Origin: Paracamarosporium sp. OC-R06-R3
Taxonomy: Eukaryota > Ascomycota > Dothideomycetes > Pleosporales > Didymosphaeriaceae
NCBI GenBank assembly: GCA_019828545.1
Contig: JACVRA010000340.1
Span: forward strand, 1 to 64,000
Length of the DNA stretch: 64,000 nucleotides
Direction: 5' to 3'
Made by a program: the position numbers and the translations under genes. Positions 1 through 36,747 of the stretch are shown here, piece by piece. Each line of letters begins with the position of its first letter. Positions within the stretch are counted from its first letter, which is position 1. Under the pieces are notes generated by a model. That model saw nothing but the letters and a program-made list of their open reading frames with translations. It searched no databases and had not been told where the DNA came from.

Positions 1-311
1 GGAGCAGCCTCAGAAGCCTCGGCCTCACGCTTAGCCTTGGAAGACGAAGCCCAGACGTATGCAGGAGCAGCCTCAGCAGCCTCAGCTTCACGCTTAGAAG
101 CTGAAGCCCAGACGTAGGCAGGAGCAGCTTCAGAAGCCTCGGCCTCACGCTTGGAAGACGAAGCCCAGACGTAGGCGGGAGCAGCTTCAACAGCCTCAGC
201 TTCACGCTTAGAAGCTGAAGCCCAGACGTAGGCAGGGGCTGCTTCATTCGCTTCACGCTTGTGTTTGCTGGAGGAAGCCCAGACGTAGGCGGGTGCTGCT
301 TCGCTGGTTTC
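1..311 (-). repeat. Tandem repeats of 17-21 codons encoding the core peptide
   Basis: Units by codon: 311-255 (19 codons), 254-204 (17), 203-147 (19), 146-90 (19), 89-27 (21) and 26-1 (cut). The core APAYVWAS is identical in all complete units. The tail alternates ASSSK / ASASK, so units pair into a roughly 114-bp higher-order period, which suggests spread by duplication of two units at a time. Confidence 0.9.
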
Positions 312-410
312 ACGCTTCTCGATTCCATTCACTGGCTTCTCAATGGCAGCGCCCGATGCAAGAAGAGGAAGTGTGGCGAGCGCCTGAATGGCGACTTCGG
401 TGAACTTCAT
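1..410 (-). CDS. Kex2-processed repeat precursor peptide, dikaritin (UstA-like) RiPP candidate; C-terminus outside window
   Basis: ATG at 410-408; the frame stays open to base 1, so 136 residues are visible and the C-terminus is missing. Residues 1-22 form a signal peptide (MKFTEVAIQ start, hydrophobic LATLPLLASG, AA after it). A short pro-segment ends in KR at 32-33. The rest is a tandem array: each unit opens with E-A type dipeptides (EAEA in most), continues EAAPAYVWAS, and ends in SK plus KR (sites at 51-52, 68-69, 87-88, 106-107, 127-128). Five units are complete and a sixth is cut. KR followed by EAEA is the Kex2/dipeptidyl-aminopeptidase arrangement of yeast alpha-factor. Together with the three neighbouring UstYa-family genes it is the layout of dikaritin precursors (ustiloxin, phomopsin, asperipin). 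The invariant Tyr in YVWA would be the expected cross-link residue (inference). A mating pheromone is less likely: no WxxPGxxC-like core. Confidence 0.85.
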   Translation of the reverse strand, partial: MKFTEVAIQALATLPLLASGAAIEKPVNGIEKRETSEAAPAYVWASSSKHKREANEAAPAYVWASASKREAEAVEAAPAYVWASSSKREAEASEAAPAYVWASASKREAEAAEAAPAYVWASSSKAKREAEASEAA

Positions 411-1532
411 GGTTGAAGAGGTGGTTGGCTTGAACTTCGGTGCTGGTATTGGTGTTGCTGGTGTCGCTGTTGGAGCTGCAGAAGAGGTTACTGAGTGGTG
501 GTGCGATGATCTTTCGAGCTGTTACCTGCCATGATCTTATACTTCTCAGTCCCGGAATTTGCGGCTATACCTAACACACAAATGGTTACGCTCAAGTTCT
601 GAGTTGAAGATCAACGGAGTACGGAATACTCGCACGCTCATGACAGCAGGATACCATGCCGTGAACCACCATACAAGACAAGAGCCCTTGGGTACCAGGA
701 TACGCTCTGTGGGGGGCAGAAATGCCTAACCTTGGATTCAGAAGTCCGTAGAACACATGAGTGGCTGGTATGTCTTTGTGCATATTCGCTTGCAGAATGT
801 ATGCTTCCCCACAACTATGGTCAGCCTCGTTGGACCCCACGTTTCCAATACACACATAGATAATTCTACGCTGTCAGTTTCCAAAAAAGGCTAGTAATCT
901 TTAAGAGTGGGATAGAATAACCCCCACGACATCAGGTACCTTGGGCTACTAGTCTACGGCAGCTCCGCTGTCAGCTTGCCCTACCCTCGTCCGCTATATC
1001 TTGTTTTTTGCAAAGGATTCAAACTTTCTGCCAAGGGCTATTCTCTCCTGAGGGAAGTCCTTAATCTAGGCCTTCGGATACCAAGTCGATGAGAATTGAC
1101 TCCGTCGTATAAGATACGCTAAACATTTTTAGAGTGTCATTTCTCCGTGAGGCCTTGTGCAGAGATAGTGGCGCTGGTTAACCTTGTTCTTGGCACGGAC
1201 TTCCAGCTTTGTGCTTGACTGTAGCGCTGTAAGATTCTGGATGAAGGATTTGGTGTAGGGAATGCTCCGCAATTGCTTGTGCGAAGTTGATGGCGCTTGG
1301 ATTTGGGGGGACGACGAGAGATGGGTGCGGGTAGTTCGTTTGTACAGAGGCATGCGTGGTGGGATGAATGCTGACAGCATTGTACGAAGCAGTTGCTAGG
1401 AGATCTAGCAAGACAACACGGTCAAAAATCTTCAAACACAATGTTGGAAGAATCTAGAGTATGAACATATCATTTCGCTACTGACACTGCCAAAACCACC
1501 ATTCTCTATAGATCTCATCATCACAAAACCAC
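411..1532. other. Intergenic, upstream of the precursor gene
   Basis: No supportable gene. It holds the promoter of the leftward precursor and the 3' flank of the leftward oxygenase. A TGTGGGGGGC decamer at 708-717 recurs in the 2445-2895 promoter. Small reading frames here lack coding character. Confidence 0.5.
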
Positions 1533-2444
1533 TCAATCACTCTGCTCCGGAACCCACCCATCCCTCCTCGTAAAAATATTCAACCCCACCTTCCTCCCTT
1601 TCTTCACCGGCATCCCCGCATGCCAAACCCCTGGATGCCCTGTCCCATTCGGATACAAATTCCCCCAAAACACAGCATTCCCAACCAAAGGCCTAAACGC
1701 CACCCCGCCCGCCCCAGAATCATCCTCACAATCAATAAACTCACACCACTTCGCCGAAAACCGGCCTTCATAATGCGGAAACTGCGTAGCGCCGCCCTCG
1801 CACTCGGTCCCGTCCACATCGTCGCAAGCAAGGTACACGAAGAACGTGGACAGCCGCGGATTCGTCATGCCCTCGAACCAGTCGAAGTGCGGACGGAAGT
1901 GGTCGCTTGCGCCGTACTTGACGACCTGGATGTCCTCGAGGTGCGACACGGGGAGAAAGCCTTGGAACTCTACGCTCCGCGCTTCGATGCAGGATACCAC
2001 GGGGTCGTCGGGGACCACGGCCGACATGGAGGACCGGATCTCGCGGTCGTACGTTTCTAGATCGTACCCTTTTGATACCGGGGATTGGCGGTAGTAGGGT
2101 ACGGCTAGGTTGAGCAGGTACGCTGTTTCGGCGGGGCTGACGTAGTTTTCTACGTAGATTATCAAGGGGTCGGTGGAGAAGATGTTCGTTTTGTAGGTGT
2201 GGGGTGGGCAGCTTTCGGCGTATTGGGTGGCCATTCCGGAGAAGGAAGGGCTGGGGGTTGCTGGGGCGGGCTGGGAGAGGAATGGGAGGGGGATGTCGAG
2301 GTTGCTGAAGTCGATCTTTGAGCTGAGGTTTTGCCATTGGAGGAAGCCGAATGGGAGGAGGGGGAATAGCATTGCTGCGGCTGGGAGGGGCAGCTTAGAA
2401 GGTGTCTTGGCAGCCTTCCGTGGTGTTGAGGCGGTCTTGGCCAT
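1533..2444 (-). CDS. Prolyl 4-hydroxylase-like 2-oxoglutarate/Fe(II) dioxygenase, membrane-anchored
   Basis: Single-exon, 303 residues, start in a good context (caacaATGGCC). A basic N-terminus (residues 1-17) is followed by a hydrophobic stretch at about 18-37, read as a type II membrane anchor or uncleaved signal, so the catalytic part would face the ER lumen. The C-terminal half is a P4Hc-type double-stranded beta-helix: HFD at 186-188 supplies the first His and Asp of the iron triad, His275 (GVWHAG) the distal His, and Lys285 (KVGLN) the 2-oxoglutarate anchor. The CEGGATQFP segment at about 215-223 is typical of the family. Such enzymes hydroxylate prolyl residues in peptides. It sits next to the precursor, whose repeats contain one Pro per core (APAY), so peptide hydroxylation is an attractive but unproven role. 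It could also be an unrelated neighbour. Confidence 0.85.
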   Translation of the reverse strand: MAKTASTPRKAAKTPSKLPLPAAAMLFPLLPFGFLQWQNLSSKIDFSNLDIPLPFLSQPAPATPSPSFSGMATQYAESCPPHTYKTNIFSTDPLIIYVENYVSPAETAYLLNLAVPYYRQSPVSKGYDLETYDREIRSSMSAVVPDDPVVSCIEARSVEFQGFLPVSHLEDIQVVKYGASDHFRPHFDWFEGMTNPRLSTFFVYLACDDVDGTECEGGATQFPHYEGRFSAKWCEFIDCEDDSGAGGVAFRPLVGNAVFWGNLYPNGTGHPGVWHAGMPVKKGRKVGLNIFTRRDGWVPEQSD

Positions 2445-2895
2445 TGTTGAAGAGGCGCGATAGAGGGAATGTGTGTGAGGTGAAGAAAGTCAGAGGTGGT
2501 TGCGCTTTTCGTTGGGGTGGTCGCAAGTATAGGAATACACAAGATTGTTTTTTCTGGTCAATCAATTTCAGGATGCATTGATCCTGAGCTGGATGCGTCT
2601 GACTTGGTGGTCACTTCTTGTCAGCGCTCACATACCATACCCCTGCCACCTACTTCTGACGCAGGGGCCGGTCTCTGTCAGTATGTGGGGGGCTTTTACC
2701 GGCACAGTCGTGCTACCGCTTAGGCGCATTTGTACACAGATGTTGAAGACGTGGGGAAGCAGTGGCATGATCGGACATCCTTTTGACGCGCTTGATCCCC
2801 GAGTTCAAACATTAACGACATTTCATCTTTGTTTCGTGCCCTCGACTCTGCCTGCGCATGAACACGTCTAATACCTGATTTCTCACATCGTCAAG
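2445..2895. promoter_or_regulatory. Divergent promoter between oxygenase and first UstYa gene
   Basis: 451 bp between two start codons that face apart. It contains ATACCCCTGC (2637-2646), also found in the other divergent promoter of this cluster at 6212-6221, and TGTGGGGGGC (2684-2693), also present upstream of the precursor at 708-717. These G/C-rich runs resemble stress-type (CCCCT) elements; function is inference. Confidence 0.45.
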
Positions 2896-3722
2896 ATGTA
2901 CACCTCTTCTGAAGAACAGCTGTCGAGCATCGATGATGATAAGCAATTCTTGCTTGAAAGCAAGCGTGGCTTTGCCATTCCCAGAAAGACCAATTTCTGG
3001 CCAAAATGGAAGAATGCGCTACTCATCTGCAATCTCATTCTATTCATCGGCGGGCTCTCCGTTTGGGGCCACGTTTTGGTCCTACTCAAGAGTCTTCGAT
3101 GCGACACGACACCTGAGACGGACCATTTCGAGCCGGACCGTAAGTATACCTACAGTGGTCATGTCGACCAGAGACGTTGACAATACCAGTGTTATACAAC
3201 AGCCGCGTGACTTTCCAACCTCACGCCTACTTTGGCGGGCCGCCCTCAAATGCGACCGACGAGATGTGGCAACGATTGTCGCCTCCGGGTGACGGCATTG
3301 TGGAGATCCCCAACGAGTTTACGGCGAACCTCCCGGCCTCGCTTCCAGCACCAAACTCCCCTAACACAGCCAAGGTCTACGGGATATCCATGTTTCACCA
3401 GCTGCACTGCTTGAATTTCCTCCGCTTTGCGTACTACCCTGAAGGTATCACCGGAATGTCTGACCAGGAGATAGTATATCATCGCGACCACTGCCTTGAC
3501 TATATTCGCCAGGCCATCATGTGCGCCGGTGACACGACCTTCGAGCCTCTGACCATGGTTGGCATAAACGGTATGGGTGCTACTCACCAGTGTCGCGACT
3601 TTGAAAGGGTGTTCAGCTGGGCGTACGAGCATCGTTCTGACAAGGTGAATGGATCGGGTTACACGGGAGGCAAAGTTACTCATACCCCGGGCCAGCGGAA
3701 CTCCTTCGACAACGAAGAATGA
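2896..3722 (+). CDS. UstYa-family (DUF3328) oxidative cyclase-like protein 1
   Basis: Exons 2896-3139 and 3190-3722, 50-bp intron (GTAAGT..CAG), 258 residues. An acidic cytoplasmic tail is followed by one membrane helix at about 41-64; the rest should be lumenal. The family signature is complete: HxxHC at 151-155 (HQLHC) and again at 179-183 (HRDHC), followed by DYIRQAIMCAGDTT. A YF..PP...D.MW..L segment at 95-111 is also typical. UstYa proteins catalyse oxidative ring closure between side chains of dikaritin precursors (ustiloxin, phomopsin, asperipin, victorin pathways). Divergent from the oxygenase. Its intron lies before the W..L segment, unlike the two paralogs downstream, so it is the more distant member. 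The tail after residue 225 is polar and of unknown role. Confidence 0.9.
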
Positions 3723-4401
3723 AGATGGAATAAAGACTTGAAAGTTCATCCTGCGTTGTACATAGCCATATACCCAATAAAAAGAACCTGTCATTGCGTG
3801 ATAAGACCGTCGAGTCAGGCGCATGTCTACAATGAGAAACAATCTTCACTCGCCTATATAATGACACTATCTAAGAGGCATCTTACGCGCGTACTGTGGC
3901 ATAGACTGTTCATTTCACAATACGAGCTCCCGACGTACTGATAAGCTTTACCATTGGCTCGGCGCTGGGAGTGCAGAGATACCAACTGCACTTGTGTCTG
4001 AAAGCAGTTAGACGTATCCGTTAGACGTCAATTGCAACGGCATATGTACCTTATTTGACCTCTAGTATAAGATATACGTCAAGAGTACTGAGATGTACGC
4101 GTGCCTTTATGCGCTAGTCTGACTAACTTATCGCCCCCCACAGGAATACTAGCCTCGCCTAGTGGTAAGGCCAGGCTCACATATTCCCCGGGACTAGACT
4201 ACGTTCTCGAACCGCGGCTGGCTTTCAACTCAGATCTTCCGACAATCATTGTATGATTCCCGGTGCTTCCTAGCAATACGGCTCAACACTCATCAAATCA
4301 CATCCACTCAGCTACTGGTACTTCCTTGTAGTGATAACTGCTTTTGAGATCACGCAGGCACTGTATGGTCCTGACAACGAAGAAGAAAGAGGCTCATCGG
4401 A
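3723..4401. other. Intergenic
   Basis: 3' flank of UstYa gene 1 and promoter of the GNAT gene. No gene recognised. A stretch near 4150-4230 has tRNA-like words but does not fold as a tRNA by eye. Confidence 0.5.
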
Positions 4402-5037
4402 ATGATGGATCCGAACTTCCACATAGCTACGCCACGCCTATATCTGTCCTACTTGCAGCCTTCTAATCCCGCTCACTGCGATTTTCTTGTCACTTTGTAT
4501 AACACCCCTGCCTTTATCGCCTCTATCGGTGGCAAACCTACCAAGATAACGACGCCGGACGCCGCCGAAGCCCTCCTTTCTGGTCGATTCCGCGCGGAGC
4601 ACGCTCGCAATGGCTACGGGACCTATCTTGTCAGCCTCATGCCCCACGTCCCCACGAATATACCCGACGAAGAGACCACACCATTTCCTGAGCGCCTTGC
4701 CGCTTGCAAGCCCATCGGAACCGTCTCCCTCATGCGAGGCGAGCCACCCAATGCATATACTGTGCCGGATCTAGGATTCGCAATACTGCCCGAGGAGACC
4801 CGCAAGGGGTACGCACGGGAGGCATCTGAGGGCTTGCTAGCTTGGGCGGAGAAAGAGCGCGGCGTGCATGAAGTGCTCGGCCTTTTCGACCCGTCCAACG
4901 AAGCGTCCAAGGGCGTGTTTAGGAGCCTCGGGTTTGAAGATAGAGGGATTAAATCACTGAAGGTGTTCGGAAATATCGAGGGCGCCGTGTGGGTGAAGAA
5001 GGGGATGGCAAGTGACTTGAGCGTCTATGGTATCTAG
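4402..5037 (+). CDS. GNAT-family N-acetyltransferase (RimJ/RimL type)
   Basis: Intron-free, 211 residues, two adjacent Met codons at the start. It opens with TPRLYLSYL, the usual first strand of Acetyltransf_3 proteins. LGFAILPEETRKGYAREA at about 124-141 carries the acetyl-CoA pyrophosphate loop (R-K-G-Y-A). The FDPSNEASKGVFRSLGFEDRG segment at 162-182 is the conserved C-terminal N..S..V...LGF signature. The family transfers acetyl groups to protein N-termini or small amines; the substrate is not readable from sequence. It lies between UstYa genes 1 and 2 and its stop codon is 58 bp from that of UstYa gene 2 (convergent). Position suggests a tailoring or self-protection role in the cluster, but similar genes are common elsewhere. 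Confidence 0.85.
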   Translation: MMDPNFHIATPRLYLSYLQPSNPAHCDFLVTLYNTPAFIASIGGKPTKITTPDAAEALLSGRFRAEHARNGYGTYLVSLMPHVPTNIPDEETTPFPERLAACKPIGTVSLMRGEPPNAYTVPDLGFAILPEETRKGYAREASEGLLAWAEKERGVHEVLGLFDPSNEASKGVFRSLGFEDRGIKSLKVFGNIEGAVWVKKGMASDLSVYGI

Positions 5038-5095
5038 GTATCAAGACTTCATTCATACTGATAAGCTACGTGCTACTGGAACGGCATGCGCGCTT

Positions 5096-5965
5096 CTAGC
5101 TTTCCTGCCACGTCAGATTGTACTTCGCTTCCTGGTCGATCTGGAACTGCCTCAGACGCTCGAAATTAATGCAGTCGTGCTCAACGCCCCATCCTGTCAC
5201 TGACGTCGCATGGCCTTTGCCGACTTTGATGGGGCTGTTGCCCTCGAGGATAAGATCTCCGCCACAAGAGATGCCCTGGCGCAGGTACTCGAAGCAGTGT
5301 TCCACGTGTACCTTCCACTTGAAGGCATCCGGATCTGCTGAAGTGTCGACGCGATTCTTCTCTTGGTAGTACTGGAAGCGCACCATGTTCTGCGTTAGTG
5401 TTAGTATTTGTTCGGTTTCAACAACGTAGCTGCATAACCTACCAGACAATGCAGCTGGTGTAGAATCGAAATCACATAAAAGTCTTGCGGCTTGGGGACA
5501 GGCGTGTTCGGGTGGTCGTATGGTGCGATAATACCTTCACCCAATCCCCACTGGGACGGGTTTTCGAGCCAGACCGCGTCGTGCCCTTGTGCAGATGTTA
5601 CATGTGTTGATCATTCATGATTCAGGGGGAGACGTACCTGCTACAAGATTATCCCAGTGGTGGTTGACTTCGGGTCCGTCTCCAACGTACCTCACATCTT
5701 CATCGAAAACTTTCTTCACGGGCTTGAAAACTTCCTTCGGTATGGGCGTTCTGGTATAAACATGCAGTGGCCCGTTATTTTGTGGTCGATTACGGTAGCC
5801 ATATGCTACCGTAGCAGTCCATCCAAGAATGAGAGTTGCAATGAGTAGGTATAGCCATTTGTTAGGCTTTTGAGCTCGTGGGACGATTCTTCTTTCCTCG
5901 CCAGCTTCTTCGTCTAGAGCAACCTTTTCATACTCATGCTTGGGGTTGATGGTGCTACTGGCCAT
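5096..5965 (-). CDS. UstYa-family (DUF3328) oxidative cyclase-like protein 2
   Basis: Three exons on the minus strand: 5965-5638, 5585-5443, 5389-5096; introns of 52 and 53 bp (GTACGT..AAG; GTAGGT..CAG with CTAAC branch-like words). 254 residues. I start at 5965 (MASSTINPKHEYEKV), not the upstream frame extension. Membrane helix at about 37-56. A PIPKEVF segment and an HHWDNL segment precede the two family motifs: HQLHC at 152-156, interrupted by intron 2 right after the next codon, and HVEHC at 185-189, followed by FEYLRQGISCGGD. The C-terminal GVEHDCINFERL block is also usual. Shares the W..L-adjacent phase-1 intron with UstYa gene 3, so the two are probably duplicates. Divergent from gene 3. 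Confidence 0.9.
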
Positions 5966-6508
5966 CGTAACAACCATAAAGGGAAGACAATCAATTAGGA
6001 TATCTAAGTGGTGTTGAATTTCAGCTTGAAAAGTGGCGAAAGGAGACACAACTGAATTGCTCGCAAACTACTTCCAAGCTGTAGTCTTCGTTGCGGCTCT
6101 CCGTTCGGGAACTGACGTCCAATCACTAAAATTGCAGAATTAATTTTCCCGATAACGCAAGTAGAAGTCAGATTTTACAATCCTTCAGTCCGAGGTCTCG
6201 TGTCACACCAGATACCCCTGCTTGTGGCACACGTGACTAGCATGGTATCCATGCACCATTTTTGGTGACCACACACTAGGAAAATCTGCGGACAGGAGCC
6301 TGTCATCCGGGAATGCATCAGTATGATGTCTACCAGGGTTTGTAAGATGGGGTTTCTGATGGCAAGGATGGTAGTTGACTTGGCCTTTTTGCTGGTATTA
6401 TCACGCGGTCAGACAACCGTTAGAGCTTTTGTCGTCTACTACTTGTTCCGTAGAACATTCTTACTCACTTTCATTATTCGAGGGGAAGGCTACTCATACA
6501 AGCGAACA
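5966..6508. promoter_or_regulatory. Divergent promoter between UstYa genes 2 and 3
   Basis: 543 bp separate the two start codons. It carries ATACCCCTGC (6212-6221), shared with the divergent promoter at 2637-2646, and a CACGTG E-box just after it (6230-6235). An alternative, upstream ATG for UstYa gene 3 at 6323 is judged less likely because it adds an extra hydrophobic segment not seen in the family. Confidence 0.4.
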
Positions 6509-7387
6509 ATGCGACTCGTCAAAGATTTTAGAGGGGAAAAGGACTATAATCAGGTTGAACAACATAGCTTCCTACCAACCGAGGACCCCTGGCAGAAGCC
6601 CAAAACTTCTGGACGATTCAGCTGTCGAGCATGTAACTTCTTCTACACTTCACTTGCGCTTTTTAGTCTCAGCCTCGGTTTGATCATCGGATATGGATGC
6701 CGCGCTGTTGGTGAGCCTTCTTCACTGGCAAGTTTCGGCATCGATCCCAACACGCCTATACCGAGGGAAGTCTTCACTACTCGTCATGACGTACCATTCA
6801 GTCCGGATTCGAGATATATGGGCCCGTCTCACGAGGTAGACAAGAACTGGGAGAAGCTTACAGAAAGTACGCCTCACCACTTCAAGCGAGCTATTTGGAA
6901 ATGAATTAATACTATTTTTCTAGGCTCCGACTCGATTTACATCTCCAACCCTTCCCGCTACAACCTTCAAGACCCAGGAATCCACGCGCCATTCTTCTTA
7001 TTTAACGAACCTCCGGCTTCAGCCAAAGCGCTCCACAACATCAACAACTTCTTCGTCTTGAACAATTTGCACCAGCTACATTGTGTCAACATGGTACGAA
7101 AGCGCTACAACACGCTCGTCTATAGACCCCAGGATGTGAACCCTTTGGCCAAGACACCCATCGACGAGGACTGGATCACGCATCTGGAGCACTGCTTTGA
7201 GTATCTGCGATTAAGCATCACATGCGCAGACTATATGGTGTTTGAGACCGATTCGCCACCGGGTAGTCCGGAAGAGTACTGGAAGGATGGGTTGAGCTGG
7301 GGAGTCGTGCACTCTTGTATTGATTGGGACAGGTTAATGGAGTTCCAAAAGCAACAAGTTGTGATGTACAATAGTACCTGGAGTTAG
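6509..7387 (+). CDS. UstYa-family (DUF3328) oxidative cyclase-like protein 3
   Basis: Exons 6509-6866 and 6924-7387, 57-bp intron (GTACGC..TAG), 273 residues from the ATG at 6509 (MRLVKDFRG). Membrane helix at about 44-64. PIPREVF and a VDKNWEKL segment match the same places in UstYa protein 2. The two HxxHC motifs are HQLHC at 169-173 and HLEHC at 206-210, followed by FEYLRLSITCADYMVFE. The C-terminal GVVHSCIDWDRLMEFQ block closes the domain. It is the rightmost recognisable gene of the cluster; about 1.8 kb without genes follows. Expected to act in the secretory pathway on the Kex2-released peptide; the three UstYa proteins may act as partners, as UstYa and UstYb do in ustiloxin synthesis (inference). 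Confidence 0.9.
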
Positions 7388-22437: not shown

Positions 22438-24548
22438 TCATACGAACGAAGGCATTCCCATCTTTTCATCAACCAACTCCCTCCAGTCCGCAATCCTTGC
22501 ACTCCCATCCCTGCCCTCATCACATTTCAGATCTCTTCTTCTCCATATCACTTTCACTAAACCCATGATCACATCATAATTTCCAACTCTTCGTTCCCTG
22601 GACCCCTCTTCAAGTATTCTCATCACTTCGATCCGATCCCTATCCTCCGTCACATTGCACGCCAACACGAACAATGACCAGGGCGAAGTGCATACGTTCA
22701 TCTGGTCGAGCAGCATAAAACACTGGCGAACAAGATCTGGAACACTGGGGAATGGGTGAGGTGAGTTTGGTGGAGTAGATGTCGAAGGGGCTGGAGCGGC
22801 TGCTGGATACGTATTGTACAAGTAGAGCATGGTAGCTATGCGGTAGAACTCTGCCGTAAGGTGGATACGCGTGTGAGATATATTACCGGAGGACTCGTCT
22901 GGATAGATGGATATCTCCTGCCGCAGATTCAAAAGACGCATTCGAAGATGTATGGCCAGGGCCGTCAGGTCAGACTCCGAAGCGCACATTTCCATGGTTA
23001 GCAGAGTGCGCAACTGGTTGATACAAGCAATCAACCGCAACAGCTCGGTCGAGCATCCCAACACCCCGGAAATCTTGTTATCAGCGTCAGTTTCAAGGTG
23101 GCACTGGTAGCTGGATATGTGAGGTCCACGTACTCTTCGGTCGCAAGCGACGCTCTCCGGGATCAGGATATCATGTACCGACGGTGACGTCGTGGAGAAT
23201 CGAGATGGGTATGCGAATTCCGAGAAGGTGTGGTGGTACTCGTACCAGTCCTTGAGGAAAGGACTGCATCTATGTTCGTCGGAGGGTAAGACGCGGCGGT
23301 AGCTGGCGACGACATCGCGGGCGCCTTGGAGGTGAGTGTGCCAACTTGTGTCCGAAGCGTCGAAGACCTGGAGAAGGGTCAGTATCTCGCAACCAGAGGC
23401 AGTGCAAGCCGTCCGATCAAGTGGCGCGCAAAGAGGAATGCATCCCATTCACTCTGTTCAAACGGGTAGAACACTCACGCTATATACGCAAAGCATCATA
23501 CACGACGCAAACTGCGTTAGTCGATTCCTCTCATCTGGAGCCGACCCACCATGGAAACTCTCCGCAAGTGCCTTTATAGCTCTGACCTTGTGGCTAAGCG
23601 CTTCATCGCGGCAACCCAAATGGAAAGACGTCAGTGCTAGCGTGGCCTGCAGGAGGCTTGTTGCAGCTGCGTCTGTCGACGTCAGCGCCATTGGCACCAG
23701 CTCAAGACGAAAACCATTCGTGCTATCATCAATTGTCGTGAGCATTCGTGCAACAACCGTATCATCTGCATAAGGTCAGTGTTAACACAACCAATCGTGG
23801 AGGTTCAGCGACAGCTAATCGAGCACCATGCGACCCTTGGCGCGATGCCACCGCAACGAGGCAATGGTATGCGAGCTGGGCTTGATCGCCCTTCCCGTCC
23901 AGTGCGATCCGTGCGAGTACGATACCCGGAACGCCCGACGATTGGAACACTCACAGTAAGATAAAAGCGATCCCTCGCGCTCGCCCAGATTCAGGTTCCA
24001 GAACTCCAGACTCGGCACGCTGCTTGGTGCAAAAAAGTCAAAGGTTGGATCACTCAATGCAACCAGATCTCGCACGTTGTAGACCTGTCCTTCTACGTCT
24101 GCAATACCTGTGTTAAGGAAATAGAATTCGCCAAACTTGGTCACATAGTTGGTCGCACTGGTATCGGGCTCCGCCTGGTACTTCTTCTGTTTTCTCCGTC
24201 CATCGTACTTATCAGGCCATGCAAGCTTCAATCCATAGCCCTTGCATTCCCTCTTCGCACGCGTACAGTTCGCGCATGCTGGCAGGGCACGATCGCATCC
24301 AACTTTGCGTTCTGTAATTTGGTAAGCAAAAACGTACAAGCGAACCGCGATATGTACGACAAGAGATGTACCAAGGCGGCGTAACACGCAGGTGTATACC
24401 TCAAGGTATATACGGCCGTAAACGCTCGCCAAGGTGGATTGGGGACCATGGGAACGACGAACTCTGGGTTGAGCATACGAATTGAAACAACATAACACAA
24501 CATACCTTTGCATGTCCAGCAATTACTCTTAGCTGTCGGCACATTCAT
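22438..24548 (-). CDS. Zn2Cys6 transcription factor
   Basis: Exons 24548-24506, 24311-23955, 23765-23479, 23367-22438; introns 194, 189 and 111 bp, all GT..AG and in frame. 538 residues. The first intron splits the zinc cluster: Cys10, 13, 20, 27, 30, 37 give CX2CX6CX6CX2CX6C (CWTCKERKVGCDR, ACANCTRAKREC). After a basic linker (RRKQKK) the rest looks like the Fungal_trans_2 type of middle domain (LLQATLALTSFHLG, FAYPSRFST, LTAEFYRIATMLYLYNT). Nuclear DNA-binding regulator; no local cluster tells its target. The three introns are longer than average here, so a small missed exon is possible. Confidence 0.85.
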
Positions 24549-34940: not shown

Positions 34941-36747
34941 ATGATCAAGCCCTTTCTCATCCTCCTTAATGGTCTCTCGCTAAGCGTGTTGGCTTGGTTC
35001 TGCCGAAACATCGACAAGCATCTACGTAGTATCAATACCGTCTCCAGTATACTTCTAACTGTGCTTCCTTTGCTAATTTGGCAATACGTACGTTTGAGCT
35101 TACTCCTTGGATATACCGACGGCTGACCCATTCAAGTTGCTCTCAGTCGCTACCTATCGAGCCTTCTGGCACCCACTTGCCAAGTGGCCTGGACCAGGTT
35201 GGGCGGCTCTGACAGATTGGTATACCGTCTACCATCTCGTCAAAGGCGATCGGCATCTGGACTTCTACCGCATGCACGAGAAATACGGCAAGATTGTCAG
35301 ATTCGGTCCACGAAGGATTTCTGTTCGGTCCGCAACAGCACTCAAAGACATCTACAGCGTCACGTCCAACGTCAAAAGATCGCAGGTCTATGCCTCGACG
35401 GCTGTCGTCTTTGGTGGGACGCCCTCGTCAAATACCACGCCCGACATGAAAGAGCATGCGTTCAGGCGCAGGGTCAATGTTCGTGCACTTACTCCAGCGA
35501 ATATCAAAGGCATGGAGGGGCAAATTTTAAAGAACATTCGATATTTCTGTGATCAGCTGGTTGACGGTGACAGCACTGAGTGGAGCTCCCCGCACGATAT
35601 GAGCAAGCGGATTGGTTATCTTGTATCAGACATCATGGGAGATATCACGTTTAGCAAGAGTTTTGATGTCCAGAGGAAACCTGATAACCGTGATCTTTTG
35701 ATGTCTCTGCCCCAGGCTGTCGCTGGTATTCATTTAGTAAGTAACAGGAACAACTACCATTTGAACTAAAATTGTACCGCTCCATCAGTCGATTAACATC
35801 ACGGACAGATCGGCTATATGCCAGAATTGATCACATTTGGGCTCCACAAGATCTTATTCCGAAATTTAATCGCTGGCATCGCACGATTCATCAGTCTCAG
35901 TGCATCAACCTTCCAATGGCGCTTCGCACAAGAAAGCTGCAACGACTTCTTCTCTGCACTTCTCCAGGCACGAGACGACAAGACCGGGCAAGGCTTCTCA
36001 ACAGACCAGCTAGTTTCCGAAGCAGGTCTTCTCACTATCGCCGGCTCAGACACCACCATCACCGCCACAACAGCCATATTCTTCTACCTCTCCCACTACC
36101 CTTCGTGCTACTCGTGCCTAGAGAAAGAGATCCGCAGCACATTTTCCAGCGTTGAAGACATTCACATCGGCGCCCGGCTTGCCTCATGCCACTACCTCCT
36201 CGCATGCATCGAGGAAACGCTCCGTCTAAACCCGCCAGTCGGCTCCACGCTAATGCGCGAGGTACTCCCAGGCGGCCTCACTGTCGATGGGGAATGGTTT
36301 CCGCCAGGAACCGACATTGCAGTGCCGCACTACGCGCTGCACCACGACGAAACCTACTTCCCCGAACCTTTCGTCTTCAAGCCGCAAAGATGGCTCTCGA
36401 AGAATTCGTCTAATCCCGTCGACGTAGATATACATCTTGAGACGCCGGAAGAGACACAGGAGAAGGCTTCGCGTCCCGCAGAATCACTTGCTGCTAGTGC
36501 TTTCACGGCCTTTGGTGTCGGGAGGACGTCTTGCATTGGGAACTATCTCGCGTATCAAGAGGTTTCGCTCATAGTTGCTCGCACTATTTGGCTCTTTGAC
36601 ATGCGTGTTGAGCCCGGGTCGACGCTTGGGGAGGGAAGTGGAAACCTGGGCGCAGGAAGGAAGAGACGTAAGGAATTCCAGACTTGGGATCGGTTTGTGA
36701 GCATGCATGAGGGGCCGGTGATGCAGTTTAAGCGAAGGCAGATATGA
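34941..36747 (+). CDS. Cytochrome P450 monooxygenase
   Basis: Exons 34941-35087, 35137-35736, 35809-36747; introns 49 bp (GTACGT..AAG) and 72 bp (GTAAGT..CAG). 561 residues. The first exon adds a hydrophobic N-terminal anchor, followed by YRAFWHPLAKWPGP, the usual hinge. I-helix AGSDTT at 327-332, K-helix EETLR at 384-388 (ExxR), FKPQRWL (PERF-type), and heme loop FGVGRTSCIG at 484-493 with Cys491 as heme ligand. An insert of about 30 residues precedes the heme loop, as in several fungal P450s near the isotrichodermin C-15 hydroxylase group (similarity by memory only). ER-bound oxidase needing a P450 reductase; substrate unknown. No backbone enzyme nearby, so it is not obviously part of a cluster. 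Confidence 0.93.

Follow-up and report, generated by a model that had tools for sequence, protein, structure and literature searches.

The dikaritins are a class of ribosomally synthesized and post-translationally modified peptides (RiPPs) for which the DUF3328/UstYa protein is cited as the defining enzyme (PMC12048977). Ustiloxin and phomopsin derive from precursors with a leader and repeated, KR-flanked cores, encoded together with DUF3328 proteins; according to the text of Le Marquer et al. (2019, PMC6339444) no Ste13 signature is predicted in these precursors. The asperipin-2a cluster consists of four genes (aprA, aprY, aprT and aprR) and has no tyrosinase (PMC6514808). Victorin, made by a Dothideomycete (PMC12048977), arises from a multi-core precursor that is likely processed by Kex2 and has been grouped with the dikaritins (PMC9233826). 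More broadly, Umemura (2020, PMC7329392) found DUF3328 genes beside 1758 of 7878 Kex2-processed repeat proteins (KEPs). In the secretomes of 250 fungal species, Le Marquer et al. (2019, PMC6339444) collected KEP cores conserved in at least four species, and one of them, motif 4 or YVW[G/A][G/S], is a conserved core of the Pezizomycotina to which the text examined gives no specific function. Here we describe a gene cluster of Paracamarosporium sp. OC-R06-R3 that encodes cores of precisely this kind next to three UstYa proteins. It lies at the start of contig JACVRA010000340.1 (C163), whose positions 1 to 64,000 form the window analysed; the whole assembly comprises 43.1 Mb in 337 contigs.

Analysis of open reading frames (ORFs) and Pfam domains places six genes within 7.4 kb: a Kex2-repeat precursor, an oxygenase resembling prolyl 4-hydroxylase (P4H), three UstYa proteins and a GNAT-family acetyltransferase (Table 1). 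These are the six genes that the initial annotation had proposed, each at its proposed place, and Pfam and the double HxxHC motifs bear out its call of a dikaritin-type cluster, which rested on a Kex2-repeat precursor in the company of UstYa/DUF3328 proteins. The visible reading frames are intact and their introns plausible, with the splice sites of the UstYa genes placed by hand from the sequence and the start codon of UstYa-3 picked among several. Two pairs, P4H/UstYa-1 and UstYa-2/UstYa-3, are divergently oriented. Taken together, these features make it likely that the locus encodes a dikaritin-type RiPP pathway that operates without a tyrosinase, a reading drawn from predicted genes and domains.

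The precursor is read from the minus strand as a tandem array with a period of 57 bp. Because base 1 of the window is a contig end that falls inside this array, the gene is open on that side. The 3' end of the array, with its stop codon, opens another contig, C281. A search of the genome found the repeat only at these two contig ends, and the start sequence of the precursor is unique in the genome; since the start occurs once, the two pieces are most simply parts of one gene. The two pieces are described separately here. At least seven cores are present between dibasic sites: those visible, five on C163 and two on C281, each read APAYVWAS, yet the codons used for Ala, Pro and Ser change from copy to copy and the spacers between the cores differ. 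The leader is hydrophobic (hydropathy maximum 1.51), and no Pfam family matches the precursor at E <= 0.001.

The core itself is of a published kind. It had been put forward as a new core peptide, a claim that finds no support in that form: YVWAS fits motif 4 of Le Marquer et al. (2019, PMC6339444) exactly in seven of seven cores and shares with that motif the Kex2-processed repeats and the occurrence in Pezizomycotina, and five relatives carry near-identical cores. What differs is that the text examined of that paper makes no link between the motif and UstYa or P4H-like proteins; in its main text "DUF3328" is absent and "ustY" appears twice, for Aspergillus clusters. Searches with the exact core string returned no fungal-peptide paper, judged by titles among the matches listed, and they miss the 2019 study because the core is written there with brackets. 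Nor did the article text and the literature matches examined show this core together with UstYa genes, or a P4H-like gene together with a KEP. In the text examined of PMC8336260, consulted for RiPP work on Botryosphaeriaceae, the sole match to "ripp" is the word "RIPper". Thus the kind of core is already published, and its link to UstYa genes and a P4H-like oxygenase is unreported in the literature examined.

The relatives come from two database searches, each of which scored about 8,000 candidates sharing most words with the precursor and which together yielded at least five: P0005 belongs to Lasiodiplodia theobromae, and P0001 to P0004 derive from assemblies of ENA and JGI. Apart from the leader and the core, these proteins have little in common with the precursor; the spacers differ. 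A semi-flexible pattern recovered 12 cores from the five proteins, leaving out the degenerate end copies of P0002 and P0005 and the cut-off end of P0001. Pro 2, Ala 3 and Ser 8 occur in 12 of 12, partly by construction, as the pattern fixes them. At the other positions we counted Ala 10 and Glu 2 (position 1), Val 11 and Ile 1 (position 5), Trp 11 and Ser 1 (position 6), and Ala 11 and Val 1 (position 7). Position 4 holds Tyr in eight cores, Trp in three, all of them in P0003, and Phe in one, in P0002; because the substitutions are confined to these two proteins, they count as two events rather than four. In the predicted cores, then, position 4 stays aromatic, whereas its phenol is not conserved. 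P0002 is peculiar in carrying three APA[Y/F]VWAS copies with no dibasic sites between them, and is either decayed or differently processed. A scan of IMG/VR for the precursor gave 11 stretches that fit a pattern, none of which was confirmed as a relative.

All three UstYa proteins match PF11807 well above the cut-off of 25 bits (107, 65.5 and 67.3 bits for the last-exon ORFs of UstYa-1, -2 and -3). After hand splicing, their two HxxHC motifs fall at residues 151 and 179, 152 and 185, and 169 and 206, respectively, and each protein has a single N-terminal hydrophobic segment, predicted to lie in the membrane, with hydropathy maxima of 1.64-1.98. UstYa-2 and UstYa-3, 35% identical over 230 aa, are closer to each other than either is to UstYa-1. 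Three UstYa genes in 7.4 kb would arise by chance with a Poisson P of about 1e-7, given some 52 UstYa genes in 43.1 Mb (a rough count from the exon-level matches, 75 in the genome as a lower bound), and this figure overstates the significance because UstYa genes cluster anyway.

With exon 2 of UstYa-1 as query, 73 of 78 candidates were relatives. The best named ones are from Neofusicoccum ribis (91%), Macrophomina phaseolina (85%) and Lasiodiplodia theobromae (85%, P0008), and those at 71-80% come from Aspergillus clavatus, Pseudogymnoascus, Microdochium, a Xylariaceae species, Penicillium, Sphaerulina and others, so that at least ten named genera fall within 71-91%. Judged by the best named relatives, the genome is Botryosphaeriaceae-like. 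The group extends down to 55% and is followed by a second set at no more than 44%, barring two matches that cover 18% of the query. When 44 of these 73 relatives were aligned, conservation reached at least 90% at the motif residues H164, H167, C168, H192, H195 and C196 (P0006 numbering), and two further residues, H227 and C229, did not vary at all. Conservation over several classes suggests a conserved substrate for UstYa-1, an idea tempered by the match listed for N. parvum, at just 71%. With the N. parvum protein P0028 as query, the best match in the Paracamarosporium genome besides UstYa-1 itself reaches 39%, and thus no close paralog was found. By sequence, the exon-2 ORF has no solved relative at E <= 1. 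A model of the ortholog P0006, with a mean predicted local distance difference test score (pLDDT) of 66.9, gave 25 Foldseek matches at E <= 10 and none at E <= 0.001.

The P4H-like protein matches PF13640 with 35.9 bits (cut-off 27) and aligns with chain 2jig, which we take to be the P4H of Chlamydomonas, at E 4.3e-14. The HxD pair, the distal His and a Lys are aligned, presumably the iron triad and the basic residue that binds 2-oxoglutarate. Its N-terminal stretch is moderately hydrophobic (hydropathy maximum 1.48). Because a proline stands near the aromatic pair in every visible core, we infer that the core proline is the natural candidate substrate of this enzyme. The GNAT protein (PF13302, 62.2 bits; cut-off 25.4) is the weakest member of the cluster; it may acetylate the peptide, at its N-terminus or at Ser, or be a bystander.

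To explain this gene content we propose that the precursor would enter the endoplasmic reticulum (ER), where the P4H-like enzyme, perhaps ER-anchored, would hydroxylate the core A-P-A-Y-V-W-A-S at its proline or at an adjacent carbon. Kex2 would cleave after each KR, leaving dipeptidyl and carboxypeptidases to remove the terminal EAEA and KR; oxidation and cross-linking of the core would fall to the UstYa proteins. Compared with asperipin-2a (PMC6514808), which likewise combines a Kex2-repeat precursor with a UstYa-type oxidase and lacks a tyrosinase, the present locus encodes three UstYa proteins rather than one and, in place of a transporter and a reductase, a P4H-like oxygenase and a GNAT; each of its cores holds one Tyr and one Trp. 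It resembles the ustiloxin and phomopsin clusters in leader, KR-flanked repeated cores and DUF3328 proteins, as far as these are described in the text cited above, but its core is of another type and, among the tyrosinase matches listed, none falls on either contig. Victorin is set apart by a different core and cross-link.

Table 1. Coordinates of the cluster genes, the repeated cores and the shared upstream 10-mer (positions in the window unless a contig is named).
Feature	Position	Strand	Remarks
Kex2-repeat precursor, 5' part	3..410	-	ATG at 410; 136 aa visible, open to window base 3; leader, six dibasic ([K/R]R) sites, five complete APAYVWAS cores
Core copy 1, APAYVWAS	273..296	-	
Core copy 2, APAYVWAS	216..239	-	
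Core copy 3, APAYVWAS	159..182	-	
Core copy 4, APAYVWAS	102..125	-	
Core copy 5, APAYVWAS	45..68	-	
Precursor array, 3' end with stop codon	C281:1-159 (L011:1-159)	strand reading into stop	repeat match
P4H-like 2-oxoglutarate-Fe(II) oxygenase, 303 aa	1533..2444	-	PF13640; nearest solved chain 2jig
UstYa-1, 258 aa, HQLHC + HRDHC	2896..3722 (exons 2896-3139, 3190-3722)	+	PF11807
GNAT-family acetyltransferase, 211 aa	4402..5037	+	PF13302; no clear membrane segment by hydropathy
UstYa-2, 254 aa, HQLHC + HVEHC	5096..5965 (exons 5965-5638, 5585-5443, 5389-5096)	-	PF11807; introns hand-placed
UstYa-3, 273 aa, HQLHC + HLEHC	6509..7387 (exons 6509-6866, 6924-7387)	+	PF11807
10-mer TGTGGGGGGC	708..717	+	298 bp upstream of precursor ATG
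10-mer TGTGGGGGGC	2684..2693	+	promoter between the divergent P4H and UstYa-1 genes; distance to their ATGs 240 and about 203 bp
10-mer TGTGGGGGGC	4133..4142	-	260 bp upstream of GNAT ATG

Upstream of the precursor, P4H and GNAT genes we found the same 10-mer, TGTGGGGGGC, which occurs three times in the window and has the same orientation relative to each of the three. When same-sized, non-overlapping stretches were drawn from 293 kb of the genome, a 10-mer common to three of four stretches turned up in 21 of 3000 draws. Genome-wide there are 45 copies in 43.1 Mb and 38 of the reversed control pattern, so there is no overall enrichment, and only the exact form is unusual: allowing one mismatch gives seven occurrences in the window, with 5.0 expected. 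The sharing of this rare 10-mer hints at co-regulation. It holds a match to SYGGRG, which we take to be the CreA consensus.

The cluster is not the only one of its sort in this genome. UstYa matches outside it were grouped by hand into 47 regions, and the 20 strongest plus one more were inspected over about 10 kb each with a script that calls a Kex2-repeat frame from at least three dibasic-separated fragments sharing a 5-mer. Nine of the 20 strongest loci contain such a reading frame (L019, L021, L022, L024, L028, L029, L031, L037 and one further locus) and the additional one does not; the control, 92 kb of the window and C281, gave no match. Each of the nine has a core of its own, distinct from APAYVWAS; examples are QWYDLTYID (L019), AFPTWI (L031) and IWLW (L028). 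Judged by these predicted frames, the genome holds at least ten loci of this sort, the present cluster included, and this recurrence favours the dikaritin-type reading.

How far does the dikaritin-type reading carry? Several observations weigh against it. DUF3328 proteins serve non-RiPP pathways too, as the text of PMC12048977 points out. The leaders of the precursor and of the P4H-like protein were judged by hydropathy alone, and both lie below the range of the UstYa segments. Only two of seven PF13640 matches in the genome fall within 4 kb of a UstYa match, and the second of these cases (L039) is unlike the present enzyme in sequence (E 0.14) and has no detected Kex2-repeat gene beside it; we have accordingly dropped the idea of a general link between P4H-like and UstYa genes. 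The 10-mer was spotted by eye before it was tested, and is therefore a post hoc observation; it is absent from the UstYa-2/3 promoter, a 9-mer is shared in the same way in 247 of 3000 draws, and in a cruder control that allowed overlaps such sharing occurred for 10-mers in 44 and for 9-mers in 53 of 500 draws. No conserved linkage was recovered in other species: none of the 73 UstYa-1 relatives lies on a contig matching in size those of P0001 to P0005 (13,484, 3,075, 8,980, 1,385 and 2,274 bases), in a weak test that used one of the three UstYa proteins as query and misses intron-split genes. In Lasiodiplodia theobromae, relatives of the precursor (P0005) and of UstYa-1 (P0008) are both encoded, which counts in favour of the reading. 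Lastly, the KR-EAEA spacers resemble Ste13 sites, whereas the ustiloxin and phomopsin precursors have no predicted signature of this sort.

These spacers are what would be expected if the precursor gave rise to a linear, pheromone-like secreted signal, trimmed by Kex2, Ste13 and Kex1, with the adjacent UstYa proteins acting elsewhere. Alpha-type pheromone precursors have such spacers, Ste13 signatures occur in other KEPs (PMC6339444), and mating factors and pheromones rank among the most widespread types of KEP (Umemura 2020, PMC7329392). We regard a signal of this kind as unlikely. The precursor lacks any Pfam match at E <= 0.001, and hence an MF_alpha match. Pheromones of filamentous ascomycetes have a two-cysteine pattern, which the APAYVWAS core does not show. 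Moreover, pheromone and mating-factor KEPs are, with three exceptions, described as devoid of DUF3328 neighbours in the text of PMC7329392, and here three such genes stand within 7.4 kb. Decay of the cluster, or a chance neighbourhood in which precursor, P4H and GNAT do not share one pathway, seems less probable still. The genome does hold at least 75 exon-level UstYa matches, Kex2-repeat genes occur near nine of the 20 UstYa loci mentioned above, and the linkage of precursor and UstYa-1 was not recovered elsewhere, all of which leaves room for coincidence; but intact visible frames with plausible introns, cores that stay uniform at the protein level under synonymous variation, the upstream 10-mer common to precursor, P4H/UstYa-1 and GNAT, and the 71-91% relatives of UstYa-1 in at least ten named genera speak against this reading.

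Within a dikaritin-type pathway, the choice of the modified residue is a separate matter. The peptide could be a classical tyrosine ether, like ustiloxin or asperipin-2a, cross-linked through the core Tyr. Tyr is present in all seven visible cores and in eight of 12 cores of the relatives, and 65.6% of the repeats in DUF3328-linked KEPs contain it (Umemura 2020, PMC7329392). Its replacement by Phe in one of the 12 and by Trp in three argues the other way, as does Trp 6, kept in 11 of 12; the lack of a tyrosinase match on C163 or C281 among those listed points in the same direction, though asperipin-2a needs none. A tyrosine-ether product is thus rather doubtful and, from the core alignment, not favoured. 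With Phe or Trp at position 4 in part of the relatives and Trp 6 almost always kept, we would expect modification at Trp and/or Pro in preference to a Tyr phenol ether. A bolder proposal, that the core Pro and Trp, and not the Tyr phenol, are oxidised and joined by the paired P4H-like oxygenase and UstYa proteins to give a widely conserved peptide of a new chemical type, is put forward tentatively, as one possible outcome and short of a probable one.

On C281, an ORF of 1824 aa for a MOT1-like SNF2 helicase (DUF3535, SNF2 and Helicase_C domains) starts at base 2820, 2.7 kb beyond the end of the array. No UstYa match falls on C281 among the matches listed (at least 75 exon-level matches in the genome), and none of the at least 39 PF00264 (tyrosinase) matches in the genome lies on C163 or C281. 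Given these absences and the MOT1-like gene, the precursor probably marks the left border. The initial annotation had rightly noted that no tyrosinase was in view; its suggestion that more genes may lie to the left, where base 1 is the contig end, could be checked on the C281 continuation, and none of this sort was seen. On the right-hand side, UstYa-3 is not followed by any ORF of at least 150 aa that begins before 12149, although genes with short exons could escape this count. Neither an S41 peptidase nor a methyltransferase is found among the nine cluster ORFs or ten flanking ORFs, where no search was aimed at these families. The cluster therefore appears to consist of six genes, the precursor being the outermost on one side.

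Further out, the contig left of the cluster carries ORFs resembling a silencing-type RNA-dependent RNA polymerase (L012:2204-5516), an assignment for which we take their GGDLDGDTY motif to be diagnostic. Within the window, a Zn2Cys6-type regulator (22438-24522; Fungal_trans_2, with a Zn_clus match just under the cut-off) lies about 15 kb from the cluster and is a possible regulator of the pathway. Cytochrome P450 ORFs (35107-36747, the first one scanned) stand beside SKIP/SNW and TAFII28 housekeeping genes and are too distant to be assigned to the cluster.

A published, conserved and so far unexplained repeat peptide thus gains candidate modifying enzymes, in a genome that holds at least ten loci in which a Kex2-repeat gene with a core of its own accompanies UstYa genes. 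The cluster directs attention to Trp/Pro, in preference to Tyr, as the site of UstYa oxidase chemistry. If the Pro/Trp proposal is true, it would give the orphan YVW[G/A][G/S] family of KEPs its biosynthetic pathway across the Pezizomycotina.

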